A stretch of 64,000 bases of DNA from IMG/VR virus record IMGVR_UViG_3300012228_000003, positions 1 through 64,000 of that record; one strand, given 5' to 3'. Shown here in pieces: positions 10,564 through 42,157 of the stretch. The stretch's first letter is position 1. Each line of letters opens with the position of its first letter. The notes under the pieces are model-generated. The model saw nothing but the letters and a program-made list of their open reading frames with translations, was not told the DNA's origin and made no database searches. This DNA comes from a virus. A program made the translations under genes and the position numbers.

Positions 10564-11283
10564 TCAAGCTCCCTTGATCGCGACCCAGCCGGCGAAGTTG
10601 AGGGTTCGCCAGAAGCACTCGACGTACGAAAACCCCGCAGAGGTCAAGAGGTCTTCATTCCACTGCGCCGTCACAGGGACCAAGACTCCCTCCAGCGCCA
10701 GGCGCTTTCGCTCGACGTCGTCCTTGCTGTAGCCGTTGGCCTCCTTGACTTGCCAGTAGAGAGAGTTGAGCAGGTCGTTGGTCTCGCAGCAAGACCCCAT
10801 CACCTTCTCGACCAGGATCGCCGCGCCGCCCGGCAGAGTACTGTTGAAGAGGCTTCGGACGATTCGCTGCCGATGCTCGATGGGCGTGAACTGGAGAGTC
10901 AAGACGCAGAGGGTCAGCGAGGCCAGGAAGGGCGGGTAGGTCGTCCTCAAGTCCAGCTCCTGAACGTGAGCGACTCCGCAAGAGATCAGCCCGGCGAACC
11001 TCTCCCGCGCCGCTGCCAGCATCGGAGGCGAGACCTCGACCCCGACGTATTGATTGAAGGCTCCGAACTTCGCGACGAACGGCGCAAGCGCCTCGCCCCT
11101 GCTGCAACCCAAATCGACTATTGCCGTCTGCGGCTTGACGAACTTGCAGCCTACCTCGAAGCAGAGCCTGCGCATCTCGTCGTAACTGGGAATGGAACGT
11201 GAGAGCATCTGATCAAAGTTGTTCGTGACATCTTCGTCAAAGGTCCACTTCTTGCCCTTCTCTAGTTTTGCTTCAGTCGGCAT
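10564..11283 (-). CDS. cmoA: CmoA-like carboxy-SAM synthase
   Basis: This 239-residue protein aligns along its whole length with CmoA, which makes carboxy-S-adenosyl-methionine from SAM and prephenate. Shared landmarks are KKWTFDEDV near the N-terminus, the SAM-binding VDLGCSRGEAL (residues 56-66), TLQFTPIEHRQ, PGGAAILVEK, EANGYSKDDVERKRLALEGV and the C-terminal LNFAGWVAIKG. Arg194 in ERKR lines up with E. coli CmoA Arg199, reported to bind the carboxylate of carboxy-SAM. No CmoB is visible nearby. The nearest plausible user of carboxy-SAM is the C5-cytosine methyltransferase 1 kb away, whose motif X is altered. Start has AAAGGAAAG upstream. An ordinary methyltransferase role is the alternative. 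Confidence 0.8.
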   Translation of the reverse strand: MPTEAKLEKGKKWTFDEDVTNNFDQMLSRSIPSYDEMRRLCFEVGCKFVKPQTAIVDLGCSRGEALAPFVAKFGAFNQYVGVEVSPPMLAAARERFAGLISCGVAHVQELDLRTTYPPFLASLTLCVLTLQFTPIEHRQRIVRSLFNSTLPGGAAILVEKVMGSCCETNDLLNSLYWQVKEANGYSKDDVERKRLALEGVLVPVTAQWNEDLLTSAGFSYVECFWRTLNFAGWVAIKGA

Positions 11284-11586
11284 TTTTCTTTCCTTTTGGA
11301 TGTAGTTTTCCAGTTTGACCCTTGCTGATCTTTTGCCTGTGCTCCTCGGACAAGGGAACTCCGAGATGAGCCTCGCTCAGTTTTCTCTTCCAATCTCCTT
11401 CATAGAAAATTCAGACTCTCCATACTTTCGCATCGCACGGTGCAGGAGAGTCTTCTTGTCCAATTTCGCCGAGGACCTGTGATGAATCCATCGAAAGGCT
11501 AACGTGTGACTCGTTTGCCCGACGTAGATTTTCCCGTTTACAAGGTTCGTCACCAAGTAAATCAGCCAGATTTTCTCCTCTACCAT
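11273..11586 (-). pseudogene. Decayed GIY-YIG homing endonuclease with NUMOD3 tail
   Basis: The frame from ATG 11586 encodes a GIY-YIG start (WLIYLVTNLVNGKIYVGQTS, then RWIHHRS and LHRAMRKYGESEFS) but stops at 11377 after about 70 residues, short of a full nuclease domain. Just beyond, in another frame, EGDWKRKLSEAHLGVPL and SEEHRQKISKGQTGKLHPKG form a NUMOD3 DNA-binding motif, ending at 11273 inside the start of the CmoA-like gene. The order GIY-YIG then NUMOD3 is that of I-TevI-like free-standing homing endonucleases, so this is a frameshifted, probably deleted copy. AGGAGA precedes the start. Confidence 0.7.
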
Positions 11587-11791
11587 CAAGGTCTCCTGAA
11601 AGATTGTCGAAAAAAGTTGCCCTACTTATCTCAGTATACTCCAAGAACTTGCGTTGAGAGTCAAGAAAATCTCGTGCAAAACCGGTCATCTACGCCAAAA
11701 CCCCCTTGCCATCTACAGCACCTCAGGCTATAGTGAAGACGTGAGGACGATTGATCCTCAGCACCATCAAACCCTTTCAAGGAGTCCACCC
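11587..11791. promoter_or_regulatory. Divergent intergenic region between the endonuclease remnant and the plus-strand regulator
   Basis: This 205-bp region has start sites facing away from each other. On the minus strand a strong -10-like TATACT is present near 11635, with TTGACT 20 bases upstream, too far for an ideal pair. The plus-strand promoter is listed separately. Confidence 0.4.
11706..11734 (+). promoter_or_regulatory. Sigma70-like promoter for the plus-strand winged-helix gene
   Basis: TTGCCA (11706-11711) and TATAGT (11729-11734) are separated by exactly 17 bases and lie 58 bases before the ATG at 11792. This is the best canonical promoter seen in the window and serves a single isolated plus-strand gene. 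Confidence 0.6.
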
Positions 11792-12190
11792 ATGACCGAG
11801 AACAACGTCGCCACCGTCTCCGCCCCCGCGCAAGCTGCTAAGGCCCCGAAGGTCAAGAAGGCCTCAAAGAAGGCGGCGCCGGCCCAGCGAGAGGCCAACG
11901 ACGGCCTTCGCAAGCCCCAGGTTCGCATCCTCAAAGCCCTGGCCAAGCACGGCCCACTCTCTCGCAATCCCCTCGCGAGCAAGGCCAAGGTCGGCCCGAA
12001 TCAGGTCGTCGGCTTGACCGGCTCGGCTACCCCCGAAGCTCGCAAGTCCATCGAAGCCTACCACGGCTACGTCAGCCTGATCACTCGCGGCTTGGTCCGC
12101 GACAAGGTCATCGACGTCGATGGAGTCAAGGAGCGCCTCTTCGAGGTCACGGCGGCGGGCAAGAAGATGGCCGCGAAGATCGAAGCCTAG
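11792..12190 (+). CDS. Winged-helix regulator on its own promoter
   Basis: This 132-residue protein has a Lys/Ala-rich N-terminal tail (about residues 1-38) followed by a winged-helix domain: RKPQVRILKALAKHGPLSR, an HTH-like LASKAKVGPNQVVGL, and a wing with RGLVRDKVIDVDG and FEVTAAGKKMAAKIE. It is a paralogue of the protein at 9543-9956. It is the only plus-strand gene in the left 27 kb, with a good promoter upstream, AAGGAG before ATG 11792 and a terminator just after. This suggests an autonomous regulator, possibly of the early-late switch or of the minus-strand operons on either side. The basic tail could also make it a DNA-compacting protein. Confidence 0.7.
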   Translation: MTENNVATVSAPAQAAKAPKVKKASKKAAPAQREANDGLRKPQVRILKALAKHGPLSRNPLASKAKVGPNQVVGLTGSATPEARKSIEAYHGYVSLITRGLVRDKVIDVDGVKERLFEVTAAGKKMAAKIEA

Positions 12191-12218
12191 GCAAGTCACG
12201 TCAACCTGACTTCAAAAT

Positions 12219-12238
12219 CCCCGGCCATCGAGCCGGGG
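12219..12238. terminator. Bidirectional terminator between convergent genes
   Basis: CCCCGGC and GCCGGGG form a perfect 7-bp stem around a 6-base loop. On the minus strand the stem is followed by ATTTTG, and on the plus strand by TCTCTCATTTCT. It lies between the plus-strand winged-helix gene and the minus-strand methyltransferase. Confidence 0.65.
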
Positions 12239-12242
12239 TCTC

Positions 12243-14186
12243 TCATTTCTGCCCCAGCATCTTGCATAGAGCCTTCGTCGCTGCTTCGATGTTGCTCCCC
12301 TTGTTCCACCACGAGTCGACTCCCGAAGGGTGGGGCAGCAAGAGGAACGTCGCCCCCTTGACCTGCCTGACCTCCAGGAATGCCATGTCTGCCAGATCGA
12401 AGGCTTCGGCCACCCCTCGACCTACCAAGACCACTCGCCTGCCAGAGACTGACAACAGGCAGGCAGTGCGACGTGCCTCGTCGAGGGGGAAGATGTCTCC
12501 CTTGCCGCCCTCCGAGTGACCCCGGAATCTGTCGATCAAGTTGACCGCCTCGAAGGAGGTCAAGAGATTCGCCAGCGACGTGCCCAGCACCGCAGCGAGG
12601 CGCTCCCCTGAGTTGCCGGAGGAGGCTCTGCGATCCTCTCTGGCGTCGGTCAGCACCGAGGGAGACTGGCCGACGAGGAGGGGGCGAGCGTTGGCGAGGC
12701 GAACCTTCGCAGAGAGCACCTTCCTGTCGACGGCGGGGATCAGGACGAGGTCTCTGACCGTCTCCGCGACCGCCCTCATCATCAGCGGAGGCACTGCGCG
12801 ACCGAGGCGCTCCCATTGCTGGGAATATGATCCTGTGAGCACGAAGTTGTCGGGGAAGGCGCAGATTCGGCGCAGCTCCGCGATGGAGAACTTTCGCTGC
12901 AGGGTCGGGTGACAGACCGATGCCAGCGAGGGAGTCCCACCTTCGGCAGTGACGGTCGGTGAGGCTCCATCGAGGGGGGCGCGGACTAGCTGGAAGAACT
13001 TGTCGCTCTGCTCTCCTGGCAGGAGCTTCGCGGCCTCGGCCCCGACCGCGAACCTCGACATGTCAGAATCGGACTCGACCTGCGTCAGCCGCACGTCCCC
13101 GCCCCCTGATCTGCCGTTGCCGCTGTTGGGACTGGCACCAATGGTGCCAGCCGGTTCCTTCTCTGCATCCTTCCAGCCCTCCTCGCCGAAGGCCACGTTG
13201 GCGCCAACCTCGACCTTGACCCCGTGAGAACCTGACCTCGTGCCTCGCACGGTCATCGCCGGATCGTCGGCGGAGTTCTCGACCACTCCGGCTCTCTTGT
13301 CGTTGGTGATGATCGTCTTGACCTCCGGCACTCTGTTGCCGGTAGCTTCTCGAAACGTGTGAATGATGGTCGGTGCCGGTCTTTGCCCCGCATCCTCCCA
13401 CTCCTTGTCGGTCCCCTTCTTGCTGAAGTCTCCTCCTGGCACGCGACCAACTTCGGAAATCCACGGGATCGCCTCGCGGACCGAGTAGCGATGGGGCAAT
13501 GGCTTCGGGTGAGCGGGCATCAGCGGCTTGCCGTCGGAGTCCTCCAGATCGTTCCGCACCCCGACGAAGATGCAGCGCTGCCGCTGCTGAGGGACTCCTA
13601 GCCACTGCGCATCAAGGACCTTGCAAGCTATGCGATAGCCACAAGCCTTCAGCTCCTTGAGAATCTCCAGGAAGTATCCCTTGGCCGTTCCCTTGACGAG
13701 TCCTGAGACGTTCTCGGCGACGAAGGTCTTCGGCTGAATGCCCTTGAGCAATCGTGCGAACTCGAAGAACAGGTCGTCGGTTCGCTGCGAGGTATCCGAA
13801 TATTTCTTGACCGCCCCCCAGTCCCGCTGCCGCTTGCCTGCGGTCGAGAATGATGCACAGGGCGGCGAGCCGTCTAATAGGTCTAGCTCTCCGGGCTTCA
13901 TGCCGATGATCTTCAACACGCTCTCTGGCGTCACCTCTCGTATGTCCCTCTCGTCAAGGTGCGTCCCCGGCCTCATGTTCGCTCGATAACTGTCCCTGGC
14001 GGCCTCGACGAACTCCGAGGCCAAGAGGACGCGGAAGCCGGCCATTCGATAACCCAGACTGGAGCCTCCGCAGCCGGAGAAGGTAGAGACCACCGTGAGA
14101 CCGTTCCAGGGGATCGCCGTGATCTCGGCCATGCTGGGCACTCGGTAGGGGGGCTTCTCGTCGATGTCATCGCAGAGCTTCGGCAT
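12243..14186 (-). CDS. C5-cytosine DNA methyltransferase (altered motif X) fused to a UDG-like domain
   Basis: About 500 residues form a C5-cytosine methyltransferase: motif I VSTFSGCGGSSLG, motif IV with catalytic Cys GSPPCASFS, motif VI ENVSG, motif VIII QQRQRCIFVG and motif IX SIAELRRICAFPDNF. In motif X the usual GNAVPP is GRAVPP (Arg codon 12798-12800). The target-recognition region is long and holds four imperfect repeats (RPAPTII, DPAMTVR, EPAGTIG, GASPTVT). A C-terminal domain of about 150 residues has UDG-superfamily landmarks: LLVGQSPS, GERLAAVLG, VVLVGRGVAEAF and LLPHPSGVDSWWN. Start ATG 14186 has AGGAGG upstream. With the CmoA-like gene nearby, the transferred group may be carboxymethyl rather than methyl; that is inference. 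Confidence 0.85.
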   Translation of the reverse strand: MPKLCDDIDEKPPYRVPSMAEITAIPWNGLTVVSTFSGCGGSSLGYRMAGFRVLLASEFVEAARDSYRANMRPGTHLDERDIREVTPESVLKIIGMKPGELDLLDGSPPCASFSTAGKRQRDWGAVKKYSDTSQRTDDLFFEFARLLKGIQPKTFVAENVSGLVKGTAKGYFLEILKELKACGYRIACKVLDAQWLGVPQQRQRCIFVGVRNDLEDSDGKPLMPAHPKPLPHRYSVREAIPWISEVGRVPGGDFSKKGTDKEWEDAGQRPAPTIIHTFREATGNRVPEVKTIITNDKRAGVVENSADDPAMTVRGTRSGSHGVKVEVGANVAFGEEGWKDAEKEPAGTIGASPNSGNGRSGGGDVRLTQVESDSDMSRFAVGAEAAKLLPGEQSDKFFQLVRAPLDGASPTVTAEGGTPSLASVCHPTLQRKFSIAELRRICAFPDNFVLTGSYSQQWERLGRAVPPLMMRAVAETVRDLVLIPAVDRKVLSAKVRLANARPLLVGQSPSVLTDAREDRRASSGNSGERLAAVLGTSLANLLTSFEAVNLIDRFRGHSEGGKGDIFPLDEARRTACLLSVSGRRVVLVGRGVAEAFDLADMAFLEVRQVKGATFLLLPHPSGVDSWWNKGSNIEAATKALCKMLGQK

Positions 14187-14337
14187 CTGACCATCCTCCT
14201 CTATGTAGTAGCTTCCCAGACCGAACCCGACCCCCCCCCGCACGGATGGTGCGGCAAGGTTCCTTGCTTATGTTCCTTCTCTCGACCCAGCCGTTCATCT
14301 TGCCAGCTGGTTGAGGGCAGATCAGCCAGAGCGTCAT
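14167..14337 (-). CDS. Possible small gene overlapping the methyltransferase start
   Basis: A 56-codon frame starts MTLWLICPQPAGKMNGW at 14337 with an ATGA overlap to the ParB-like gene and ends inside the methyltransferase start. It contains ISKEPCRTIRAGGG, which loosely resembles the TI/TV repeats of the methyltransferase target-recognition region, and crosses a 9-C tract at 14231-14239. It may be a translated small gene, an upstream coupling frame, or a remnant of a methyltransferase. Confidence 0.3.
   Translation of the reverse strand: MTLWLICPQPAGKMNGWVERRNISKEPCRTIRAGGGRVRSGKLLHRGGWSDAEALR
14231..14239. repeat. C9 homopolymer just upstream of the methyltransferase start
   Basis: Nine consecutive C on the plus strand lie in the leader of the cytosine methyltransferase. 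Adding one base would join the small upstream frame (from 14337) in frame to the methyltransferase. Confidence 0.8.
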
Positions 14338-15026
14338 GGCGCTTCGTCCTCCTGACCTTCCTTCGCTTGAACGTCTCCTCCGCTGAAAGCATACCCGCAG
14401 CGGGGGCAGATGTGATCGACCTCGATGTCCTCACCGACTTCGGGGAAGTCTTCGGGCGAGGCAGGCTCGGCGAAGTCCATCGCTCTCAGCACCTCTAGCT
14501 CGTCTAGGCTCCAGCCGACCATCTCCAGCCCGGCCTTCGAGACCATCTGCTCCAGCTTGGCGACTTGCTCGAAGTCCCAGCGACCGTGCTCGGCACTTCG
14601 ATTGTCCGCCATCCCGTAGGCGGCAAGCTCGGCCTCAGAGAGGTCGTCGTCTCTGGCCGCCGCGATCTTCGTCCAGCCGAGCGCCTTGGCCGCTTCGAGG
14701 CTCCCGTTGCCTGCGATGACGATGCCGTCCTTCGTTGCAGCTAAGGGCCTGCGCTGACCGAAGAGGGCGAAGGAGAGCATGATAGCCCGGATCGACTTCT
14801 CAGGATGCTTCTTCGCGTTGTTCGGATCGGGGGTCAGCGAGTCGATCTTGACCACAAGGGATTTGAGCGAGGGGGCGATCCGGTCCTTCGGCGCCTCTCG
14901 CATCACCCGCTCCTCCCGCTCCAGTTGAGTCTCGGCCTTCTTCGCGGCTTCAGGAGTCTTGACCTTGGTCACTAACCCCGCTGCTCCTCGGTTGACCAGC
15001 TGCGGTCTGTCGTCGAACTTAGGCAT
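14334..15026 (-). CDS. ParB-like nuclease-domain protein with C-terminal zinc ribbon
   Basis: This 230-residue protein has a ParB/Srx-like domain: SLVVKIDSLTPDPNNAKKHP, the core GIVIAGNGSLEAAKALGW and ELAAYGMADNRSAEHGRW. The C-terminus has CPRCGYAF, half of a zinc ribbon. ParB-like proteins of this kind usually sit beside or are fused to phage DNA methyltransferases, and here a cytosine methyltransferase lies on one side and an amino-methyltransferase on the other. It may guide or regulate modification. Start ATG 15026 follows AAGGATAGG. Confidence 0.75.
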   Translation of the reverse strand: MPKFDDRPQLVNRGAAGLVTKVKTPEAAKKAETQLEREERVMREAPKDRIAPSLKSLVVKIDSLTPDPNNAKKHPEKSIRAIMLSFALFGQRRPLAATKDGIVIAGNGSLEAAKALGWTKIAAARDDDLSEAELAAYGMADNRSAEHGRWDFEQVAKLEQMVSKAGLEMVGWSLDELEVLRAMDFAEPASPEDFPEVGEDIEVDHICPRCGYAFSGGDVQAKEGQEDEAP

Positions 15027-15030
15027 GTGC

Positions 15031-15750
15031 CTATCCTTTCTTGAGTAGTTGTTCCAAGCGCTTCCAATTCTTCTGCCGAGTCTGAGAGGCTACAGTCTGA
15101 GGGTTCAGTCTCTCCCTCTCGATTCTTTCTACTGCGATGTTGAAGTAGTGCTCGTTGATCTCGCAGCCGACGAATTTTCGCCCCAGCCTCATGCAAGCCA
15201 CTCCGGTCGATCCGGCCCCCATGTAGGGGTCGATGATCGTCTTGGCCTTGACCTTTTCGATGCACCACTGCATGAGTGCTGCCGGCTTCTGAGAGGGATG
15301 AACTGAGACCTCTCCTCTCTCACTCTCCTTGTCGAACCCGTGCCACTTGTGCTCGAAGAGATAGACCCCCACTCCACCTTTCTTCCAAGCTAACTCGGCA
15401 TCTGAGAGAAAAGTTCCAAGCTGATTGCTCCCCTTCTTGTTCCAGACGAGGACAGTGCCGACCGATAGGTGAGAGGCAAAGAACTGCCAGCCCCAGAGGA
15501 TCACCTCGGGGAACCTCAGCCACGGAGTTGGATCGAACGGTTCAGAGTCCCCCGCAATTCCTTGGTCATAGTTCTTGCTTGGAGCGATGCCGTTGGTGAA
15601 CCTCGTATAGTCGCAGTTGTTATCTACGCCATAGGGAGGGTCGGAGATGACGGCCCCCTGAGACAGAGAGGCCAACGATTCAAGGCAGTCCCCCAAGATC
15701 AGCTTGTAGCGATCCGTCTCGACGATCCTCTCCGGTTCAAGCCTTGGCAT
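15031..15750 (-). CDS. DNA N6-adenine/N4-cytosine methyltransferase
   Basis: This 239-residue enzyme has motif IV ISDPPYGVD before the SAM-binding motif I DPYMGAGSTGVACMRLGR, the order of beta-class amino-methyltransferases. Between them lies HPSQKP, usual for this family. It overlaps the end of the primase-helicase gene by a few codons. No restriction endonuclease is recognised nearby, so it likely modifies phage DNA for protection or regulation. The target base cannot be decided; DPPY fits N6-adenine best. Confidence 0.85.
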   Translation of the reverse strand: MPRLEPERIVETDRYKLILGDCLESLASLSQGAVISDPPYGVDNNCDYTRFTNGIAPSKNYDQGIAGDSEPFDPTPWLRFPEVILWGWQFFASHLSVGTVLVWNKKGSNQLGTFLSDAELAWKKGGVGVYLFEHKWHGFDKESERGEVSVHPSQKPAALMQWCIEKVKAKTIIDPYMGAGSTGVACMRLGRKFVGCEINEHYFNIAVERIERERLNPQTVASQTRQKNWKRLEQLLKKG

Positions 15751-31465: not shown

Positions 31466-34447
31466 ATGCTGTACGTCTGCAATCTGTGCGAGATCGAGAT
31501 AGAGTCCCCGGAGCAATCGCTCTTGCCGGCTAAGACGGGAGGATGCCTTCACGTCTGGGAGGATAAGAAGAGCATGGACCCTACGTCCAAGACCTTGAAG
31601 GCAACATCGTCCCTCTCAGCGATCTCGGAGCCGACGATGACCAAGCCTTGCGAGACTACGAGCGATGGTGTGACCGCCAGCAACGCTGAACCATTCATCG
31701 TTCCCCCCTCGAAGCTCTCCTTCGGCGGCAAGACTGCCTTCCGCAATCGACCCTCTCCTCTCGCCAATCGCCTCAAGGAGCAAGCTGATAACTTCATCCC
31801 CCACCTCATCGTCGAGGCTCGCGCAGGAACCGGGAAGACGACGACCCTCGTCTGGGGCATCCTGAGCATGTTCCGCCAGCGCTGCCCCGGAATCTGGGAG
31901 AGGCTCAAGTCGGTCATCGGCTTCGAGCCGGTCCCTTCCCCGCAGCAGGCAAAGATCTGGGAGGCGATGGCTCTCTCCTCGAACGCCAAGACGATTCAGT
32001 TCACCGCCTTCAACAAGGCCCTTCGCAATGACCAACCAATCTTGACCCCTGATGGCTGGAAGCAAATCGGAGATGTAGAGATCGGAGACTTAGTTTTCGG
32101 TCCCGACGGTAAACAGTACCCCGTAATCAAGGTCAATCACCTAGGCTTGCGTCCAATCTACGAAGTTCTCTTTAGCGACGGTACGGAGGTTTTAGCAGAT
32201 GAGGAACATCTCTGGATGACAGAAACAATCAAATATCAACCTGGGAATAGCAAAGGATGGTACAAGCGAGAGCGATGGTCACTTAAGACAACTAAACAGA
32301 TCATGGACACCGTCGAAGGAGTTCATCGCGTTCCCCATCTCTCAAGCCCAGTAGAGCATCCTACGAGAGAACTGCCCCTCGATCCCTACCTCCTCGGTGC
32401 CCTGATCGGTGATGGCTCCTTCGTCTACAACGCAGTCTCGTTTTGCTCCGCCGAAGATGATATGACTGAGCTAGTTAGGCAGACTATCCCAGAAGAGTGT
32501 GAAATGATCTCTACTGGAGATGGTCGGCTCGGTTGGAGAATAGTTGCTAAGAACAGAAGGCGAACGATGGCCCTAGGAAGCAATCCTGTGCTAAATGCTC
32601 TTCACGGGCTAGGACTTCACGGCAAGAGATCAGGAGAGAAATTCATCCCTGAGAAATACCTCTTCGCCGACGTTAACCAGCGCCTCGCGATGGTACAAGG
32701 ACTGATGGACACCGATGGATGCTCCAACGGAGTTATGTCCCCCTTCGTCACGACTAGTCATCTCCTAGCCTATGGGGTACAGCACCTTGTACAGTCCCTT
32801 GGCGGAGTCTGCTCCGTATCATTCAAGAAGTCTAGCGAACCTCAGAACAGCGACTCGTACTGGGTCAATGTCAGGCTCCCTGTTTTCATGTGCCCCTTCC
32901 GGCTCCCTCGCAAGATCAACTCTTGGAAGCCGAGAGAGCGAGAGGAGCAGACTCCTCGCAAGATCATCTCAGTCTCAAGGACTGCCGATGCAGAGGCAAC
33001 CTGTATCACCATCAATTCCCCTGATCATCTCTTCCTGACTGCCGGTTGCATCCCGACGCACAATAGTATCGTCCGCGAGTTCGAGGGCAAGTGGGGGTGG
33101 GTGCAGACTGCTCTGCGAGAGGTCGGCGTGACCCTGAACTTCAACACCAACCACAGCATAGGCTTCGCTGCGGTTCGCAAGGCTTTCCCTCGCATCGAGG
33201 TCTCGGAGTATCGGGTGATGGACCTGATCTCCGAGGTGCTCGGTCAGGACATCCGCGAGCTACGCCGGAACAAGTTCGAGATGCTCAAGGGCACGGAGCG
33301 TCTGGTCGGTCTCTGCAAGATGAACCTGCTCGACGGAGAGGACGCGGATGAACTCCAGAAGCTCGTCTCTCATCACGACCTGGGCATCGACGGCTTCAAG
33401 AGCGAGGTCTTCGGCCTGGTGCCGAGGATCATCGCTCTCTGCAAGGACCCCTCGAAGGACCGGCGGATCGACTACGACGACATGGTCTGGCTGCCTGTCG
33501 TGCATCGCCTCAACATGGCCAAGAACGACCTCCTGTTAGTTGACGAAGCACAGGACCTGAACCGCTGCCAGCAAGCCCTCGCGAAGATGGCCGGGCATCG
33601 CCTGATCCTGGTCGGCGACCCGAAGCAGGCCATCTACGGCTTCGCGGGCGCCGACGTCGAGTCGATGCCGAGGATGCACCAAGAGCTTGCCGGGAATGCG
33701 AACATCCCTCGCTGCGAAGTCCTGCCCCTGACCATGACTCGGCGCTGCGGCAAGGCCATCGTCAGGGAGGCCAACAAGATCGTGCCGGACATCGAGGCAT
33801 TCCCGACGAATCCCGAAGGCGAAGTCCTGCAAGCGCTCTACCCGACCTTCGAGCGGAACGGCAAGACCGAGGAGCGGAAGTTCGAGGAGACCTATCTGGC
33901 ACTGGTGCAGGACGGCGACATGGTCCTCTGCCGAGTCAATGCTCCGCTGGTGTCCCAGTGCTTCAGGTTCCTTAAGCGGGGCATCAAGGCCAACATCCAG
34001 GGTCGGGACGTCGGGCAGGGATTGATAACGACCATTCAGAAGATGGGAGCCGAGAACCTGCCGACCCTCGTCGCGAAGATCGGAGACTGGCTGGAGCTGG
34101 AGTCGAACAAGGAGCGAGCCAAGCGCAACCCCTCGGAGTCGAGGATCATCGCCCTGCAAGACCGGCACGACTGCATCCTCGCTTTCACGGAAGGAGCGAA
34201 GGAAGTGACCGACGTCATAAAGAAGATCGAGAGCATCTTCACCGATGACCGGACCAGGGCGGGGATCAGGCTGTCATCCGTGCACAAGGCAAAAGGTTTG
34301 GAGGCAAAGCGAGTGTTTATCCTCCAGCCAAAAGGCGCTGCAATCCCTCATCCCCTCGCCAAGAGTCCTTGGCAGGTCGGACAGGAGTACAACTTGCTCT
34401 ACGTCGCCATCACCAGAGCCATCAACCAACTCTACTTCGTCAGCTAA
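31466..34447 (+). CDS. UvrD/Rep-family SF1 helicase interrupted by an intein
   Basis: The 993-codon gene encodes a helicase of about 644 residues after splicing. The N-terminus has a CxxC segment (YVCNLCEIEIE). Helicase motif I is VEARAGTGKTTTLV, motif Ia is FTAFNK then, after the intein, SIVREF, motif II is LLVDEAQDLNRCQQAL, motif III is LVGDPKQAIYGFAGAD and motif VI is LLYVAITRAINQLYF. The intein sits precisely in motif Ia (FNK, then the intein, then S). It probably serves replication or recombination. AGGAG precedes the start. It ends the plus-strand block together with a small zinc-ribbon gene. Confidence 0.85.
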   Translation: MLYVCNLCEIEIESPEQSLLPAKTGGCLHVWEDKKSMDPTSKTLKATSSLSAISEPTMTKPCETTSDGVTASNAEPFIVPPSKLSFGGKTAFRNRPSPLANRLKEQADNFIPHLIVEARAGTGKTTTLVWGILSMFRQRCPGIWERLKSVIGFEPVPSPQQAKIWEAMALSSNAKTIQFTAFNKALRNDQPILTPDGWKQIGDVEIGDLVFGPDGKQYPVIKVNHLGLRPIYEVLFSDGTEVLADEEHLWMTETIKYQPGNSKGWYKRERWSLKTTKQIMDTVEGVHRVPHLSSPVEHPTRELPLDPYLLGALIGDGSFVYNAVSFCSAEDDMTELVRQTIPEECEMISTGDGRLGWRIVAKNRRRTMALGSNPVLNALHGLGLHGKRSGEKFIPEKYLFADVNQRLAMVQGLMDTDGCSNGVMSPFVTTSHLLAYGVQHLVQSLGGVCSVSFKKSSEPQNSDSYWVNVRLPVFMCPFRLPRKINSWKPREREEQTPRKIISVSRTADAEATCITINSPDHLFLTAGCIPTHNSIVREFEGKWGWVQTALREVGVTLNFNTNHSIGFAAVRKAFPRIEVSEYRVMDLISEVLGQDIRELRRNKFEMLKGTERLVGLCKMNLLDGEDADELQKLVSHHDLGIDGFKSEVFGLVPRIIALCKDPSKDRRIDYDDMVWLPVVHRLNMAKNDLLLVDEAQDLNRCQQALAKMAGHRLILVGDPKQAIYGFAGADVESMPRMHQELAGNANIPRCEVLPLTMTRRCGKAIVREANKIVPDIEAFPTNPEGEVLQALYPTFERNGKTEERKFEETYLALVQDGDMVLCRVNAPLVSQCFRFLKRGIKANIQGRDVGQGLITTIQKMGAENLPTLVAKIGDWLELESNKERAKRNPSESRIIALQDRHDCILAFTEGAKEVTDVIKKIESIFTDDRTRAGIRLSSVHKAKGLEAKRVFILQPKGAAIPHPLAKSPWQVGQEYNLLYVAITRAINQLYFVS
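32018..33064 (+). mobile_element. Class 3-type intein with LAGLIDADG endonuclease
   Basis: The insert of 349 codons begins ALRNDQPILTPDGWK and ends CIPTHN before Ser+1. The N-terminal residue is Ala, not Cys or Ser. Block B reads ADEEHLWMT with the Trp, block F has the Cys of EATCITINSPDH, and the penultimate block has Thr before HN; this W-C-T set marks class 3 inteins. Two LAGLIDADG-like helices are visible, YLLGALIGDG and MVQGLMDTDG, so the homing endonuclease may be active. Its codons are more AT-rich than the flanking helicase, pointing to recent transfer. Confidence 0.85.
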
Positions 34448-34883: not shown

Positions 34884-35888
34884 CTATTCGGGAAAGAAGT
34901 CGCGAAGAACGGAGAAAGCCCTAGCGACCGAAGCCTGGGTCGTGATGCCCGGCTGGATCGGCAGGTACATCACACAGGCTGCGAAGTGACTCGACCGAGG
35001 GTAGTAGCTGCTCTTGACCAGTTGGCAATCCCTGAACTCCTCCTGCTCGTGCATCGGCTTGAAGGCATGACGAGCGGCAATCCCCTCCTTCTTCAGCGCC
35101 GCGATGACTCGGTCAAAGCAGAGCAAGCCGCTGGAAGGGAGACGGAGGTCGTAGACCCACGGCGCGTCTCGCGGCGGCATCCTCCAGGTCGGAGGGCAGG
35201 CATCATCGTACCATCGCTCGATGAGTCGCCGCCCCATATTGGCGAACTTGAAAGCCTCCAAGCTCTTCAAAACCAGCTCCGCATGTGCGTTGCTCATCCG
35301 GTAGTTGTGACCGCGAGGGACGTGGTTGAAGTCGTGGGCCTCGGTGAAGCCCAGCGACCGAAGCTGCCTCGCCAGCGCAGCGTGCTTCGGGTCGCGGAAC
35401 CAGACGGCCCCGCCCTCCTCGCCGGCGACGATCTTGTTACGGTAGAAGGACCAGCAGGCGGCATCGGTATACTTGCTAGGCTTGACCCCATGAGCCTCAG
35501 CGAGGTCTTCTACTACCTTAGCAGAGATTGGGGAGGACATCCACGACTCCATATCTACTCTTCGTCCGTAGATGTGAACTGCTAATATGCACCTAACGTC
35601 ATTAGGTCTAGGCATCTGAACGATACCGCACTTGAACTTCAACTCAGAGTCCATGTTAAGGTCGTCCCCGCAATCGACGAAAACAGGCTCCAGTCCCGCC
35701 AGCACCACAGCGCGGGGGCAGGCGACCATCGTGAAGTCCGGCACCAGGACCTTCGAGCCTGGCGGGAGCTGCAAGCTCTCCAGCGCCAGGTGCAGGGCGG
35801 CGGTCCCACTGGAGCAGGCGACCATACCAACAGGGTCGAGGTCGTTGAAGGCTGCCCACTCTTGCTCAAGTCGTTGATATGCTTCCAT
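34884..35888 (-). CDS. DegT/DnrJ/EryC1-family sugar aminotransferase
   Basis: This PLP enzyme of 334 residues transfers an amino group to a keto-sugar nucleotide. Signature parts are ACSSGTAALHLALESL, VPDFTMVACPRAVVLAG, VVEDLAEAHGVKPS, and the Schiff-base Lys in WSFYRNKIVAGEEGGAVW. Start ATG 35888 overlaps the upstream TAA as TAATG. It is the last gene of the sugar operon. Substrate is unknown; with the dehydrogenase, epimerase and acetyltransferase genes it could make an N-acetylated amino sugar. Confidence 0.85.
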   Translation of the reverse strand: MEAYQRLEQEWAAFNDLDPVGMVACSSGTAALHLALESLQLPPGSKVLVPDFTMVACPRAVVLAGLEPVFVDCGDDLNMDSELKFKCGIVQMPRPNDVRCILAVHIYGRRVDMESWMSSPISAKVVEDLAEAHGVKPSKYTDAACWSFYRNKIVAGEEGGAVWFRDPKHAALARQLRSLGFTEAHDFNHVPRGHNYRMSNAHAELVLKSLEAFKFANMGRRLIERWYDDACPPTWRMPPRDAPWVYDLRLPSSGLLCFDRVIAALKKEGIAARHAFKPMHEQEEFRDCQLVKSSYYPRSSHFAACVMYLPIQPGITTQASVARAFSVLRDFFPE

Positions 35889-36076
35889 TATTGGCACTCG
35901 CAGACTGTGACGTTGTAGGCTTTGATAATTTGTATCGTACTGTCATCTATGCTATAAGTCTTGCGGAGTTCTTTGACTTTGGCTTCAGCTTCGTCAATGT
36001 CTTTGAACTCCTCGAATCCGCAATCATGGCCCTGCATGATGCAGCCACCGCAGTTCCAGTAGACAAAGATTTGCAT
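35888..36076 (-). CDS. Small unknown protein in the sugar operon
   Basis: The 62-residue product begins MQIFVYWNCGGCIMQGHDCG and ends YNVTVCECQ. It has a small alpha/beta pattern with five Cys. Start and stop are tight against the neighbours. No family is recognised. Confidence 0.5.
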   Translation of the reverse strand: MQIFVYWNCGGCIMQGHDCGFEEFKDIDEAEAKVKELRKTYSIDDSTIQIIKAYNVTVCECQ

Positions 36077-36077
36077 T

Positions 36078-37202
36078 TTACTTCTCCCAGGGCCACTTGC
36101 GACCGTTGCTCTCGAACCACTTGATCGTCCTGCGCAAGGCCTCGTCGAGAGAAGTCAGCTCGTCGAGCAAGCATCCATGAGAGTTGCTAAGGCTTCCGCG
36201 AATCTTCTTCACGTCTGCCTGAAGATGCCATATCTCCCACGGCCTTACCCTTGCCTCGTCCCTCTCGACCTTGACGTCGGCGAACCCCATCAGCTTGCCG
36301 ATCAGCTTAGCGAGGTCATACATCTTGATGCCAGTCTCGCTGCCAAGGTTGTAGACCTCTCCGAACTGCCCGCGCTCCAGCAGCTCGACCGCGATCTTGA
36401 TCGCATCGCCGGCATAGAGGAAGTCGCGGAAGCTGTCGTTGCCGAGGCGGACGACGTTAGTTCCGCCAGGTCCGTAGATGCTCTTCGACCCGCCGCAGGT
36501 GAAACACTCTTTGTGTTCATATCCGGTGGCGGTCGATTCTCTCCTCGTCCCCGTTCGATGGCACTTCATGCAGTATTGCTTGTTCAGTTGACTGATGATC
36601 TCCGGCACGATGTAGGGATGGGTCTCCCTCTCGCCGACGCAGTTGAACTGTCGTAGGGCGATGCACGGTATCTTGGCCTCCCGCCACCGAACTTGCACCC
36701 AGTTGTCCACCGCTGCCTTAGCGACCCCGTAGGAGGAGTGAGGAGTAACAGGGAATCCTTCTCCTATCCTTATATCGTCCTCTTCGGTAGGCTCTACCGT
36801 GAATGGAACATCACCGTATATCTCGGCGCTGCTAACCTGGAGGATGGCCTCGGCACCGGCCTCCTGCGCTGCGTTGATGACCTTCATCGCCCCCATGTAG
36901 TTGACGTCGGCGACGTGGATCGGTCGGGCAAAGGAGACGGGGATGTAGGGATAGGCCGCATAGTTGAAGCAGAACTGCGCTCCGAAGCCATAGAGCAGGC
37001 GCCACAGCCTATCCTCGCTGCCGGTGATGTCGTGGTGCTCGAAGGTAGCCTTCGGATGGACGAACTCCCTGCGGCCTGCGCAGAGGTTGTCGATCACCAA
37101 GACGTCGCAGCCCCGATCCTCGACGAGATGATTGACGAGGTGCGACCCTAGAAAACCTGCACCACCAACGACGACCACATTGCAATCTCGAATCGTTCTC
37201 AC
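36078..37202 (-). CDS. NAD-dependent sugar epimerase/dehydratase with inserted zinc motif
   Basis: This extended SDR enzyme has 374 residues. The cofactor loop is VVVVGGAGFLGSHLVNHL, the catalytic part is VSSAEIYGD then SSYGVAKAAVDNW (Y-x3-K), and the late family motif is FRDFLYAGDAIKI. Between about residues 208 and 240 a Cys4 segment is inserted (YCMKCHRTG and ECFTCGGSK), absent from usual family members and looking like a zinc knuckle. Start is GTG at 37202, overlapping the methyltransferase stop. It likely epimerises or dehydrates a nucleotide sugar. Confidence 0.85.
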   Translation of the reverse strand: MRTIRDCNVVVVGGAGFLGSHLVNHLVEDRGCDVLVIDNLCAGRREFVHPKATFEHHDITGSEDRLWRLLYGFGAQFCFNYAAYPYIPVSFARPIHVADVNYMGAMKVINAAQEAGAEAILQVSSAEIYGDVPFTVEPTEEDDIRIGEGFPVTPHSSYGVAKAAVDNWVQVRWREAKIPCIALRQFNCVGERETHPYIVPEIISQLNKQYCMKCHRTGTRRESTATGYEHKECFTCGGSKSIYGPGGTNVVRLGNDSFRDFLYAGDAIKIAVELLERGQFGEVYNLGSETGIKMYDLAKLIGKLMGFADVKVERDEARVRPWEIWHLQADVKKIRGSLSNSHGCLLDELTSLDEALRRTIKWFESNGRKWPWEK

Positions 37203-37684
37203 AGTATGTCTCCCTTGTCCTCTTCGTCATACTCCAGAAAAAGCACCCGCCGCGACACCCTTATCAACTCCTGCTCCATCAGGTTCCAGACGTCCTCTCC
37301 CAGGTTCCTCTTCATCATCGGGCGTATCGAGATGCAGACGGCCCAGTCGAAGGTGTCGGGGAAGTCCAGCCTGCGCAGGTCGCCGACGACGAACTCTTTG
37401 CGAGGGTGAGTCTGCTGTGCCAGCGCCACGAAGTCCGGCGAGAGGTCGACGCCGAGATACCGCCCGTCCCAGTCCTTCGGCAGCAGGGTCAGGAGCCTCC
37501 CCCACCCACAGCCTGCGTCGAGGATCGAGTCGTGTGGCAAGATTAAATCACTCAGCAGCTTGCGGTGCCTGGCCTCGATGCGCTGCCAGCGGTCGAGTGG
37601 GCAGCGGAACACAGCCTGGTGCAGTTCCTTGGCCTGCTCCAAGCGCTGCCGCCAGTAGTCAGGAGAGAGGATCGGCTCGGTCAC
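37199..37684 (-). CDS. Class I SAM methyltransferase
   Basis: The 161-residue enzyme has motif I SILDAGCGWGRLLTLLP and the following acidic YLGVDLSPDFVALAQ. Start is GTG at 37684 in a GTGA overlap with the glycosyltransferase stop; a longer frame upstream would overlap that gene. It may methylate a sugar or glycan made by this operon. Confidence 0.75.
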   Translation of the reverse strand: MTEPILSPDYWRQRLEQAKELHQAVFRCPLDRWQRIEARHRKLLSDLILPHDSILDAGCGWGRLLTLLPKDWDGRYLGVDLSPDFVALAQQTHPRKEFVVGDLRRLDFPDTFDWAVCISIRPMMKRNLGEDVWNLMEQELIRVSRRVLFLEYDEEDKGDIL

Positions 37685-38646
37685 AGCAGCTTCTCCTTGA
37701 TGGTCTGGACAAGGGTGGCGCAACGGTGACTGTAGGTATGCTTCTTCATAGTCCAGCGATGTGCTTCTCCAGCCAACTGCTCTCTCAGCTTCTCTTCTGA
37801 GAGCCACCTATCGATCACCGCGGTCAGTTCCAACTTTCGATACATTACGAGGGAGAGAGGTTCCTTGTACTGCTGATATAGTCCCTCGCTCCAAGGGTGC
37901 AGTAGGAACCCGCCGAGTCTCAAGACATTGTAAACTCGATTGCTCCAATACCGTTCCGTCACCGGCGAGTCAGGAGCGACGACGATCTTGGCCCTGTTGA
38001 TCTCGTTGGCCAGCGCGACCCCGTGGCAGCCCTTGAGGACGTGCTTGAACTTCTCGCCGTAGCGCTCCCGCAACTCCTTGACGAAGGACTCCCTACCGTA
38101 GCCGAGACCTCCGACGAAGAGGACGTCGACCGGTCGGACGACTTGAGGGCTGACGAACTCATAGTCCTCTGGTTTGTAGACCAGTTCCCTCATCCACTGC
38201 TGACCCTTAGCATTGCTCTTGATCCTAACATCTCGAACATAGTCGAAGGTCCCATCGCACGGCCTCTCGTCGGCCCCCTGGGTCAGCCAGTGCAGCTTGC
38301 CGGTCTTGTCCTGAGCCACCCAGTCACCGTCGGTCAGGAACCCCAAGTCGCAGATCGCGGTCAGCTCGGTCATCCACTTCCTGCGCTGGCTATGGCGCTG
38401 ACCGCCCTCCGGCCAATCAATGAGATCAAAACACCAGAACACCTTTGGTATCTTGACCTGGCGCAGGGCGAAGAGGTCGTGCCAGTGATGGCAGAGCAGG
38501 AAGTCGGCCTGGAGGTTCGAGACCCCCTTGGTGTAAGATTCCATGACCCTAACGACCTCGTGGCCGAGTTTCTCCAGGGCGAAGTGAATCGCGCCCTCGT
38601 CGTCATTGCCACCTGAGTCATGCTTGCCGACGTAGACGATCTTCAT
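37681..38646 (-). CDS. Glycosyltransferase, CgeB/GT1-like
   Basis: The 321-residue protein starts MKIVYVGKHDSGGNDDEGAI and has the two-domain GT-B look: VDVLFVGGLGYGRESFVKEL opens the second domain, with VVAPDSPVTERYWSNRVYNV and LRLGGFLLHPWSEGLYQQY near the donor site, resembling CgeB/YkvP-like transferases. It is coupled to both neighbours by 4-base overlaps. The acceptor is unknown. Confidence 0.75.
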   Translation of the reverse strand: MKIVYVGKHDSGGNDDEGAIHFALEKLGHEVVRVMESYTKGVSNLQADFLLCHHWHDLFALRQVKIPKVFWCFDLIDWPEGGQRHSQRRKWMTELTAICDLGFLTDGDWVAQDKTGKLHWLTQGADERPCDGTFDYVRDVRIKSNAKGQQWMRELVYKPEDYEFVSPQVVRPVDVLFVGGLGYGRESFVKELRERYGEKFKHVLKGCHGVALANEINRAKIVVAPDSPVTERYWSNRVYNVLRLGGFLLHPWSEGLYQQYKEPLSLVMYRKLELTAVIDRWLSEEKLREQLAGEAHRWTMKKHTYSHRCATLVQTIKEKLL

Positions 38647-39695
38647 TGACCCAGCACCTCAAGGTATTTCGGTTTCAGCGCGTCCCACGAGTTCTCCTCG
38701 GCCCACTGCCTGCCCTGGCGAGAGTACTCGGAGATATCGCGACCGTACCACTCGTCGATCTTCGATGCTATGTCCTTCGGGTCGATGATCGCCTCGTCGA
38801 ACTCTCGGCACCGGGTGGCAACCCTTGCCTTTTGGTATCCCGACGGCTTGACGAGAGGCTCAGTCGGCAGCCAGGCGTTGATCGGGAACCTGTCGGTTGC
38901 CATCACCAGCATGCCAGATGCATGCGCCTCTTGGAGAGGGAGGGACAGGCCATTGAAGCGCTCTGGAAATATAAATACATCGCCTTCAGAGTATAGGTCT
39001 TCGTATGGAACTGTTCCGGACCGCCAGTGGAGATTCCTACCTCGATGTCCGCTACCTTCTCCTTCTGCCTGAGTCCTAACGATCAACTTGGCTCCTGACT
39101 TGACGTATTGCATCGCTGCGTATAATTCAGCGGTTCCATTCCTGCCCCTCAGACCTCCATGACCAGCATTGTGCACAAAGACCTCGGCAGTTTCTCGCAA
39201 GCGCCATCGAGAGGCTACGGCTCTCGGAACGGGGACGGGAAGGAAGACGCTTCGAGTGCTGACAGGAATTAGAATCCTGTTGCCAAGCTGATCCTTGCCT
39301 ACCTTGTGCGTCTGCCAATGACCGTCTGGGTAGCATTGGAGGTCTAACAGTGACGGACAGATGAAGTGGTCGGGGTGCGCTGGTAGTGGATCAGGCATAC
39401 ATTCATACATCGGGCATAAGAACGTCTTGACACCAGCATCTCGACAAGCTGCGATCAGGCTCCAGTTGAATGGAGTCTCGAAGAACAATATCACATCCAT
39501 CGCCAGGCAGAAGGCCAGCAGCGCGGGATCGTTGAGGTTGCCGATCCGGGGGGAGTTCGGATACCACTCATCATGTTCCGGTCGCCGTCCGTGCCTAATG
39601 ACGGCTACGTCGGTGATGATCCCTTCGTCGTAGAAGTCCTTGGCGAGGATGCCGAGGCCCTGATCCGTCGAAAAACATAAAGTCCCGATCTTCAT
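38643..39695 (-). CDS. Glycosyltransferase, GT4-like
   Basis: The 350-residue protein has a GT-B C-terminal domain with VFIFPERFNGLSLPLQEAHA followed by SGMLVMATDR, the usual E-x7-E donor-binding region of GT4 enzymes. It is coupled by ATGA to a 58-codon gene upstream. It is one of four transferases in this part of the genome. Confidence 0.8.
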   Translation of the reverse strand: MKIGTLCFSTDQGLGILAKDFYDEGIITDVAVIRHGRRPEHDEWYPNSPRIGNLNDPALLAFCLAMDVILFFETPFNWSLIAACRDAGVKTFLCPMYECMPDPLPAHPDHFICPSLLDLQCYPDGHWQTHKVGKDQLGNRILIPVSTRSVFLPVPVPRAVASRWRLRETAEVFVHNAGHGGLRGRNGTAELYAAMQYVKSGAKLIVRTQAEGEGSGHRGRNLHWRSGTVPYEDLYSEGDVFIFPERFNGLSLPLQEAHASGMLVMATDRFPINAWLPTEPLVKPSGYQKARVATRCREFDEAIIDPKDIASKIDEWYGRDISEYSRQGRQWAEENSWDALKPKYLEVLGQ

Positions 39696-39868
39696 CTTTT
39701 CTTTCTCCTACCTTCCCGATAAGCCTTGCAAAGAGAGAAGACCGTCTTGAGCTTATGCAGATCAGTTAGGGGTTGAAGAATTTTGCGTCTCTTCCAAGCT
39801 GCTCTCAGCTTAGCTCGATGCCCCGGAGTTTTGTTCTTGTCTCCAAGAGCCGTCTGAATCTCACTCAT
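39692..39868 (-). CDS. Small basic protein
   Basis: A 58-codon gene starts MSEIQTALGDKNKTPGHRAK at 39868, continues LRAAWKRRKIL and ends in a Lys/Arg-rich tail. It has ATGA overlaps on both sides, so it is very likely translated. The TPGHRAKLRAAWKRR part recalls a NUMOD-type DNA-binding helix, but this is weak. Confidence 0.5.
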   Translation of the reverse strand: MSEIQTALGDKNKTPGHRAKLRAAWKRRKILQPLTDLHKLKTVFSLCKAYREGRRKKR

Positions 39869-40086
39869 CTTCTCGCGATGTGAAAGTCAACTATTCCTTG
39901 CAGCTTGTTCAGCCTCTCCACCATCGCCGCGTGCGAGGACCGGAGGGCGGCGAGTTCGGCAGCGAGGTGGCGAAGCATTGCGGCAGCTTCACGCAGGCCG
40001 CTATACTTGATTGGCCTGTCGCCAGCACATCCTTCAAGGTATGCCGCCACCTTCTCCTTCACCTCGATGAGGTCTTTATTGTTCAC
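39865..40086 (-). CDS. Small coiled-coil protein
   Basis: The 73-residue helical protein reads MNNKDLIEVKEKVAAYLEGC and later AAELAALRSSHAAMVERLNK, with heptad spacing. ATGA overlaps join it to both neighbours. Function is unknown. Confidence 0.5.
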   Translation of the reverse strand: MNNKDLIEVKEKVAAYLEGCAGDRPIKYSGLREAAAMLRHLAAELAALRSSHAAMVERLNKLQGIVDFHIARR

Positions 40087-40409
40087 AGCGGACCCCCCGA
40101 AGATCGAACGTACATGACTGCGTCGGCTCCGTTCTCAGCTCCGTAGAACCTGCGCAGGACTCCAGCCACCTCGAACCCGCAGGACTCGTAGAACTGCTGG
40201 GCGACCTCGTTCGTAGTCCTGGTGATCGCGAAGACCCTCTTGCCCGGCCCGACGTCTTGGAAGAGAGTAGTCAGCAGTTGCTTGCCGATTCCCCGGCGCC
40301 GATGCTCCGAGGTCACTGAGATGTCGAATATCTCCACGGTCCCTCCCCCGCCCTCTCGATAGACGAGGAAGTCTTGAGACCCCAAGAATATGGTGACGTC
40401 GGTCTTCAT
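40083..40409 (-). CDS. GNAT-family acetyltransferase
   Basis: The 108-residue enzyme has the acetyl-CoA loop SEHRRRGIGKQLLTTLF (R/Q-x2-G-x-G/A) and the late motif AQQFYESCGFEVAG. The start ATG 40409 overlaps the upstream stop as ATGA. In a sugar operon an amino-sugar N-acetyltransferase is the natural guess; self-standing protein acetylation is the alternative. Confidence 0.75.
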   Translation of the reverse strand: MKTDVTIFLGSQDFLVYREGGGGTVEIFDISVTSEHRRRGIGKQLLTTLFQDVGPGKRVFAITRTTNEVAQQFYESCGFEVAGVLRRFYGAENGADAVMYVRSSGGPL

Positions 40410-40927
40410 TGGAGTATCCACACTGCCAGCCTCTCGACTCGGTCGGTCCACTGACCGAGGGCCTCGACTGCCGCCCTCTTGACCTGGAATCCTCCGCCGG
40501 AGTCGTTGACATCATGGACCGCGATGACCTTGGCTCCGCACGCTTGAGCCTTCTCGATCTGGACGATGGTCCCGTCGTAGGAATGCTCTCCGTCGAGATA
40601 GGCAAACTCGACCGGCCTGACCTCCCACTCCTCTATTGGCTGCTTGAAGAGGACCGCATGGAACAGTTCTCTGCTGCGCATGTTGACGTGCCAAGCCTCC
40701 TCGATCTTGTCACCGTCCGTTGCCGTATCCTCTCGGTCGAAGGGGTCAACGCAGTAGAGCGGCCTGCCAAAGGAAGCAAGCAGAACTGAGCTGCGGCCCT
40801 CGTAGCAGCCGACTTCGAGAATCGGTCCCTGCATTTGAGAGCAATGCCAGTAGAGCAAGGAGGCCTCGTTCTTGGAGAGCCATCCGTTGCCAGGCAGGGT
40901 CTCATAGATTTCGGCGAAGGTCTTCAT
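40406..40927 (-). CDS. Class I SAM methyltransferase, Methyltransf_24-like
   Basis: The 173-residue protein has ILEVGCYEGRSSVLLA (motif I), YCVDPFDRED and VEFAYLDGEHSYDGT, the pattern of small methyltransferases in glycan and cephalosporin-hydroxylase-like families. It is coupled by ATGA to the dehydrogenase. The sugar or methyl acceptor is unknown. Confidence 0.7.
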   Translation of the reverse strand: MKTFAEIYETLPGNGWLSKNEASLLYWHCSQMQGPILEVGCYEGRSSVLLASFGRPLYCVDPFDREDTATDGDKIEEAWHVNMRSRELFHAVLFKQPIEEWEVRPVEFAYLDGEHSYDGTIVQIEKAQACGAKVIAVHDVNDSGGGFQVKRAAVEALGQWTDRVERLAVWILQ

Positions 40928-41820: not shown

Positions 41821-42047
41821 AAAAGTACCTCTGGAAACTTTTTCATTAACTCGTCGATCAATCCTTCGGGAGCTTGATTTTCTGCTCGCCAACCTCTATC
41901 GTATTGATAGAACCTTCTATCGCTCGCCAGTACGCTTAGCTTGGAGACCCTACCCATCCTGATACCAAATATACTAGGACTATCGTAGACCTTAGCCTCG
42001 CACTTCCATACGACATCATCCCAAGTCAAGTCAAAATTAGTCCACAT
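41817..42047 (-). CDS. Small unknown protein in the sugar operon
   Basis: The 76-residue product starts MWTNFDLTWDDVVWKCEAKV at 42047, with AAGGAGG upstream and a TGATG overlap to the preceding gene. It is beta-rich with a helical end (GLIDELMKKFPEVLL). No family is recognised. Confidence 0.5.
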   Translation of the reverse strand: MWTNFDLTWDDVVWKCEAKVYDSPSIFGIRMGRVSKLSVLASDRRFYQYDRGWRAENQAPEGLIDELMKKFPEVLL

Positions 42048-42157
42048 CACAAGAACCTCCTTGCCAACTCGATCAGAGTGGCGACGTTGATGACGGCGAT
42101 CCATCCCCAGACGATGAGGATGACGGCATACCAGACTTTGTCGTCGATGTGCTTCAT
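42047..42157 (-). CDS. 36-residue membrane peptide
   Basis: One transmembrane helix is visible (VWYAVILIVWGWIAVINVAT) with short charged ends. It overlaps the glycosyltransferase stop by ATGA and the next start by TGATG, so it is almost certainly translated. Function is unknown; a membrane anchor for the sugar enzymes or exclusion is possible. Confidence 0.5.
   Translation of the reverse strand: MKHIDDKVWYAVILIVWGWIAVINVATLIELARRFL

Follow-up and report, generated by a model that had tools for sequence, protein, structure and literature searches.

In Synechococcus phage S-B43, a phage-encoded CmoA makes carboxy-S-adenosylmethionine (carboxy-SAM), and CmoX, a C5-cytosine methyltransferase whose motif X Asn is replaced by Arg350, converts cytosines in GC motifs to 5-carboxymethylcytosine (Yang et al., Nat Commun, December 2025, PMC12783734). 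In the crystal structure 8YF3, Arg350 of CmoX contacts the carboxylate; the wild-type enzyme accepts carboxy-SAM only, the R350N variant accepts neither cofactor, and CmoY ligates glycine after the CmoX step (PMC12783734). 5-Carboxymethylcytosine made by SpCmoX hinders HhaI, and 5,615 candidate CmoX sequences were reported, many of them accompanied by CmoA, by AMP-forming ligases and by neighbours with ParB domains; the main text of that paper contains none of the terms "glycosylase", "UDG" and "deamination" (PMC12783734). Here we analyse bases 1-64000 (the window) of a 67,049-base linear virus record, IMG/VR IMGVR_UViG_3300012228_000003, which may be a fragment. The window encodes a CmoA homologue and a CmoX-like methyltransferase that carries at its C-terminus a domain of the uracil-DNA glycosylase (UDG) superfamily. 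To our knowledge, a UDG-like module has not been described as part of the CmoA-CmoX system.

A sequence-only reading of the window had proposed a natural carboxymethyltransferase fed by the phage CmoA. Judged from homology we prefer this interpretation to any other, and the system itself is proven in S-B43; the accompanying remark that no natural example was described has been overtaken by that publication (Yang et al., December 2025, PMC12783734). The carboxymethylation idea is already published, and the fusion to a UDG domain and the lack of CmoY are the new features of this locus. A 2013 abstract by Iyer is said to mention phage modifications that use modified SAM derivatives, so that an earlier computational prediction may exist. 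Our analysis establishes homology, residue conservation, genome linkage and fold; gene calls are our own simple open reading frame (ORF) calls.

The methyltransferase and the CmoA homologue

The ATG of the 647-aa methyltransferase, at 14186, is preceded by a good AGGAGG, and residues 31-477 match PF00145 (E=3e-53), which places them in the C5-methyltransferase fold. SPPC is found at residues 107-110 and GRAVPP at 462-467; the gap to the cmoA-like gene is 960 bp, in agreement with the sequence-only reading, which had noted GRAVPP about 1 kb from cmoA. The best match in the PDB is SpCmoX (8yf3, E=1.3e-69), ahead of the next solved match, HaeIII (E=2e-21), by 48 orders of magnitude. Arg463 aligns with SpCmoX Arg350 at the motif X Asn position, and the equivalents of SpCmoX F25, E47, F48, D69, C98 and R350 are all kept in a pairwise alignment. 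The window enzyme combines the C5-methyltransferase fold with SPPC, a motif X Arg, SpCmoX as its closest match and a nearby cmoA; it is probably a member of the published CmoX system, in a new form. Three further CmoX-like genes (L276, L277 and L278, from Bacillus safensis, B. pumilus and Bacillus sp.) encode SPPCS and a motif X Met (GMSVP), and cmoA was not found within 6 kb of them; these Met-type enzymes possibly use another cofactor or make another base product.

The CmoA-like protein matches TIGR00740 (cmoA) over model positions 8-239, nearly the whole model (E=1.8e-42); its score of 145.7 bits is below the curated NCBIfam equivalog cut-off of 193.3, a score rule set for the cellular equivalog and not a biochemical feature. 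The best PDB match is E. coli CmoA (4gek, E=6e-29), and phrog_4752 is matched at E=4.5e-68. Arg194, within VERKRL, aligns with E. coli CmoA Arg199, so that the sequence-only reading was right about a full-length protein with this residue. The Arg is not a necessary mark, however: the proven phage carboxy-SAM synthase SpCmoA has Glu at the aligned position, and ~110 CmoA relatives comprise 47 with Arg (E. coli included), 47 with Glu and a small remainder. Because SpCmoA has Glu, Arg199 is not diagnostic of a carboxy-SAM synthase, and we rejected it as a functional marker. A large divergent CmoA group with Glu at this position pairs with Arg-type CmoX (L041, L048, L101, L129, L150-L226 and others); given the Glu in this group and in SpCmoA, the carboxylate-binding residue of CmoA must therefore differ or be dispensable. 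Another CmoA homologue occurs together with annotated adenine methylases in Alcaligenes phage Afa-NA1 (L030, PV550095.1), where the annotation of the 20-kb stretch shows no C5-methyltransferase beside it. This is a possible N6-carboxymethyladenine system, of a kind that Yang et al. looked for and did not find (PMC12783734).

Linkage of the motif X Arg to cmoA

C5-methyltransferases related to the window enzyme were collected from viral contigs and scored for motif X, for the residue that follows the catalytic Cys and for a nearby cmoA. The 74 clusters comprise 66 with Arg and 8 with Asn; cmoA lies in the flank of 63 of the 66 Arg clusters and of none of the 8 Asn clusters. L139, one of the Arg exceptions, carries cmoA at another place in its own record, and a re-search of the Arg exceptions with a wider CmoA model, run without a positive control, found nothing. 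In an independent collection of bacterial and archaeal genomes, cmoA is present within ~6 kb of 32/35 Arg enzymes and 0/42 Asn enzymes. The motif X Arg is thus not found equally often without cmoA; the sequence-only reading had named such an equal frequency as refuting it. On the viral and bacterial counts we also rejected chance residue change as the explanation of the motif X Arg.

Next to the catalytic Cys, on its C-terminal side, enzymes with Arg have Ala, Ser or, in one case, Lys, and those with Asn have Gln or Val. In a tree rooted on GNAVP enzymes, the close Asn group forms one clade inside the Arg enzymes (Shimodaira-Hasegawa-like approximate likelihood ratio test, SH-aLRT, 90), a pattern that suggests a return to ordinary methylation with loss of cmoA; the tree tool's pair test for Arg and cmoA had too few pairs. 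The pattern can be put as a sequence rule, SPPCA/S and GRxVP with cmoA versus SPPCQ and GNxVP without it. The ParB-CmoX-CmoA order is kept in relatives, and in PaBG a gene annotated as Vsr-like stands just upstream of a ParB-CmoX-CmoA-ligase cluster.

These data bear on the view that the window encodes an ordinary SAM-dependent 5-methylcytosine enzyme, with CmoA as a tRNA enzyme or a passenger and the motif X Arg as drift. C5 methyltransferases are common in phages, and E. coli CmoA normally serves tRNA. However, the closest solved enzyme is a proven CmoX, which is restricted to carboxy-SAM and is inactivated by R350N (PMC12783734), cmoA co-occurs with Arg and never with Asn in both the viral and the bacterial set, and the gene order is conserved. 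We therefore regard an ordinary enzyme as highly improbable, and carboxymethylation chemistry in the window phage as very likely. CmoA-CmoX, proven in one phage, would then extend to a distant metagenomic phage lineage and, going by the homologues, to bacterial genomes (Verrucomicrobiota, Streptomyces, Nonomuraea and others). Metagenome-assembled genomes of Verrucomicrobiota (L232-L249, L256) contain several separate CmoX-CmoA pairs per assembly, e.g. JAKQDD01 and JAOSKK01; these may belong to prophages or to another mobile element.

A UDG-superfamily domain fused to CmoX

Beyond motif X, the window CmoX has 186 residues, compared to 20-66 in relatives. The sequence-only reading identified the enzyme but overlooked that its last ~150 residues are a separate UDG-superfamily domain. 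Alone, this domain matches PF03167 at E=0.002, and 14/14 relatives match the same family (best 4.7e-9); it also matches phrog_12275, a family of unassigned function, at E=1.5e-17. The UDG-domain profile A2 matches 12249-12686 at E=1.7e-51, the window sequence being one row of that profile. An AlphaFold model of the domain (predicted local distance difference test, pLDDT, 85.5; predicted template modelling score, pTM, 0.79) has its closest folds in UdgX (Z 11.7), MUG (Z 11.3) and TDG (Z ~10), and the Thermotoga and Thermus UDG match at Z 11-12. Residues 43-205 of the family A DNA polymerase of phage phiLo, solved with a modified template (PDB 9qhs_A), match the model as well (Z 10.6); a literature search found no paper for this polymerase entry.

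The domain has the motifs GQSPS (506-510), VNLID (548-552) and PHPSG (618-622). The GxxP of UDG motif 1 and the HPSx of motif 2 are thus present, and the G, the P and the HPSG are invariant in 14 relatives. Among relatives of the module, the HPSG His and the VNL Asn hardly vary, which suggests retained glycosylase chemistry. The position of the catalytic acid is occupied by Gln (Q507) in the window and in 16/18 scorable C5-linked relatives, and by Glu in the others; motif 1 of the window domain accordingly has Gln where the superfamily has an acidic residue or Asn.

A fusion of this kind could also arise from an assembly or sequencing error that joined two neighbouring genes: in relatives, cmoX and udg lie side by side as separate genes, and a single fused CmoX-UDG copy was found, on one metagenomic record. 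However, the frame is continuous through a linker of ~20 residues without a stop, and analogous UDG fusions to other enzymes occur in independent contigs. We consider such an error very unlikely.

Distribution of the UDG module

Searches with the UDG domain by tblastn and by single-sequence patterns found no relatives, and a motif scan alone found some. A DNA scan for the UDG motifs, blind to CmoX and favouring one form of the domain, gave at least 119 loci. Among the matches listed, a CmoX-family methyltransferase was found by tblastn in 21/119 of these loci, usually within 1.5 kb; the reverse count gave a UDG domain in 10/80 loci chosen by CmoX alone. The rough base rate of CmoX is at most 0.2%, taking the upper figure of 5,615 (three databases) over 2.9 million viral contigs, so that the listed co-occurrence is a large excess, as an estimate and not a test. 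Gene orders include CmoX-UDG-CmoA (L031, L079) and CmoX-CmoY-UDG-CmoA (L042, L113). The UDG domain is also present beside five Asn-type methyltransferases without CmoA and is therefore not tied to carboxymethylation; since its presence changes nine times on the tree, it has been gained or lost repeatedly. In the first tree (FastTree), the window's nearest CmoX relatives all carry the UDG domain, a grouping to which IQ-TREE runs give no firm support.

The module is fused to three kinds of enzyme: CmoX (in the window), a CmoY-like asparagine-synthetase domain (L033 and L116, near-identical) and a TAGT glycosyltransferase (L040, L050 and L103, with both Pfam domains in one frame). In locus L064, from a phage related to that of the window (polymerase 42% identity, primase 32-39%), ParB-TAGT-UDG stands in the place of the window's ParB-CmoX-UDG. 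Among the listed UDG loci that lack a C5-methyltransferase, ORFs less than 2.2 kb away included thymidylate synthase (7), TAGT (4), 5-hydroxymethyldeoxyuridine (5-hmdU) DNA kinase (3) and amino acid:DNA transferase (3) among 87 proteins; the corresponding counts for ORFs at distances above 4 kb in such loci, drawn with slightly different length filters, were 1, 0, 1 and 1 of 87. A search for TET/JBP in the UDG loci gave no match, and the controls likewise gave none.

We would give an even chance to the view that the phrog_12275-like UDG module belongs generally to phage base-modification systems, as a component so far unreported, and that it has been recruited repeatedly, through linkage in the genome or by direct fusion, to CmoX, CmoY-like ligases and TAGT glycosyltransferases, acting on or reading the modified base. 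If so, the window holds the first fusion seen that joins a carboxymethyltransferase to a domain for base flipping or base excision. The module also hints at a missing step of phage hypermodification, which could be the repair of modified bases after deamination or a helper function in base flipping, and the natural fusions are ready material for testing its role.

Proposed mechanism

We propose that the phage CmoA makes carboxy-SAM as the substrate for CmoX, and that Arg463 in the cofactor pocket binds its carboxylate. Cys110 would attack C6 of cytosine, the carboxymethyl group would go to C5, and the resulting 5-carboxymethylcytosine, a negatively charged base, should hinder host nucleases, with the effect of SpCmoX on HhaI as a precedent. 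A search with PF00733, with working controls, found no CmoY-type ligase in the 67-kb record, so that the window differs here from a full CmoA-CmoX-CmoY system. Because of this the modification may stop at the free acid, and we lean slightly towards free 5-carboxymethylcytosine as the end product.

The C-terminal domain most likely flips pyrimidines into a pocket of its own. We speculate that it serves as a quality control at modified sites or close to them, where it would remove deaminated or wrong pyrimidines such as 5-carboxymethyluracil opposite G. The mismatch endonuclease Vsr, which guards against 5mC-to-T mutation (PMC12907096), is a precedent for such a repair role, which by analogy is our first choice, held tentatively. 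A non-cutting module that flips or reads DNA and holds the modified base for the modifying enzyme would account for the fusions to three different base-modifying enzymes, the prevalence of Gln at the catalytic position beside C5 enzymes and the UDG-like match at the N-terminus of the phiLo polymerase (9qhs). Against this, a catalytic-type His and a specificity-type Asn are kept almost everywhere, and CmoX already flips its own base; we find this role possible but rather unlikely. Brig1 and Brig3, UDG-superfamily glycosylases for modified phage bases (PMC13160076), could point to an attack on foreign DNA, with excision of host or rival-phage bases as Brig1/Brig3 act on T-even phages. Such a function is difficult to reconcile with fusion and linkage to the phage's own modifying enzymes, with the risk of self-damage and with the many different chemistries to which the module is linked, and seems distinctly unlikely.

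Several observations weigh against carboxymethylation followed by UDG-dependent repair. Two Arg clusters lack CmoA even in records of 43-62 kb, and the Fisher P of 1e-8 for the Arg/cmoA linkage in the 74 viral clusters overstates the evidence, because the change from Arg to Asn and the loss of CmoA amount to one or two events on the tree. As the record is linear and maybe incomplete, the lack of CmoY could be missing data. The UDG domain may not cut, because Q507 occupies the usual acidic catalytic position, and cytosine deamination is no obvious explanation for the linkage of the module to thymine-hypermodification genes. Overall, carboxymethylation by a CmoA-fed CmoX that carries a UDG-like domain is the best explanation of the locus, and we hold it with high confidence.

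Gene neighbourhood

The modification genes are on the minus strand in the order N6/N4 methyltransferase, ParB-like gene, CmoX-UDG, insert and CmoA-like gene, with a DNA polymerase A and a primase-helicase just upstream. A search with the primase-helicase gave no similar phage record, and family-library searches with the translation of the plus-strand ORF in the insert gave no match.

Features of the modification locus (window positions)
Feature	Position	Strand	Basis and remarks
cmoA, carboxy-SAM synthase homologue, 239 aa	10564..11283	-	TIGR00740, PDB 4gek, phrog_4752
Insert between cmoA and cmoX	11377..12190	two ORFs, opposite strands	ORF list and translations
GIY-YIG-like ORF in the insert	11377-11589	-	GIY-YIG call from reading of the sequence alone
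Plus-strand ORF in the insert	11654-12190	+	
cmoX-udg fusion, 647 aa	12243..14186	-	one open frame; Shine-Dalgarno AGGAGG; best PDB match 8yf3
UDG-superfamily domain, ~residues 500-646	12246..12689	-	own profile, PF03167, phrog_12275, AlphaFold fold
CmoX domain, ~residues 1-480; catalytic Cys110; motif X Arg463 at 12798-12800	12747..14186	-	PF00145
ParB-like gene adjoining cmoX	14334..15026	-	phrog_620, E=2e-31; ParB neighbours in relatives too
N6/N4 DNA methyltransferase, DPPY type	15031..15750	-	PF01555, E=1.5e-18; neighbour of ParB-like gene

Seven unrelated proteins of the window phage start with a shared peptide, MP(R/K)(L/F)..D(D/E), e.g. MPRLIDDE: CmoX, ParB, the N6/N4 methyltransferase, the primase-helicase and three others (starts at 14186 -, 15026 -, 15750 -, 18007 -, 26701 -, 27993 + and 29814 +). 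The peptides are encoded with differing synonymous codons, and a stricter form occurs six times in the window and, in ranked output, in none of ~230 other phage loci. It may be a sorting or processing tag. Further along, 31466-34447 (+) holds a helicase-like ORF with an apparent intein (NDQPILTPDGWKQIGDVEIGD ... LTAGCIPTHNS), as read from the translation, and 34884-43251 (-) a sugar and glycosyltransferase block with a DegT aminotransferase, an NAD-dependent epimerase and several glycosyltransferases.

Comparison with described systems

The window shares with the CmoA-CmoX-CmoY system of S-B43 a CmoA and a C5-methyltransferase with SPPC and a motif X Arg, and with the published CmoX contigs a ParB-like neighbour. 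It differs in that its CmoX ends in a UDG-like domain and has a longer variable region (647 vs 372 aa), that CmoY is lacking from its 67-kb record, and that its CmoA has Arg at position 199 of the E. coli numbering, which is Glu in SpCmoA. In the engineered M.MpeI N374K (as cited in PMC12783734), a basic residue at the motif X Asn likewise allows use of carboxy-SAM; that enzyme has an engineered Lys and CG specificity, whereas the window enzyme is natural and has Arg. The C-terminal domain has the fold of UdgX, MUG and TDG (Z 10-12) and their GxxP and HPSG motifs, but is only 12-20% identical to them, has Gln at the acidic/Asn position and is fused to a base-modifying enzyme. Like Brig1 and Brig3 (PMC13160076), it is a UDG-superfamily protein concerned with modified phage bases; while those are host defence genes, the UDG domain of the window lies within the phage's own modification cluster.

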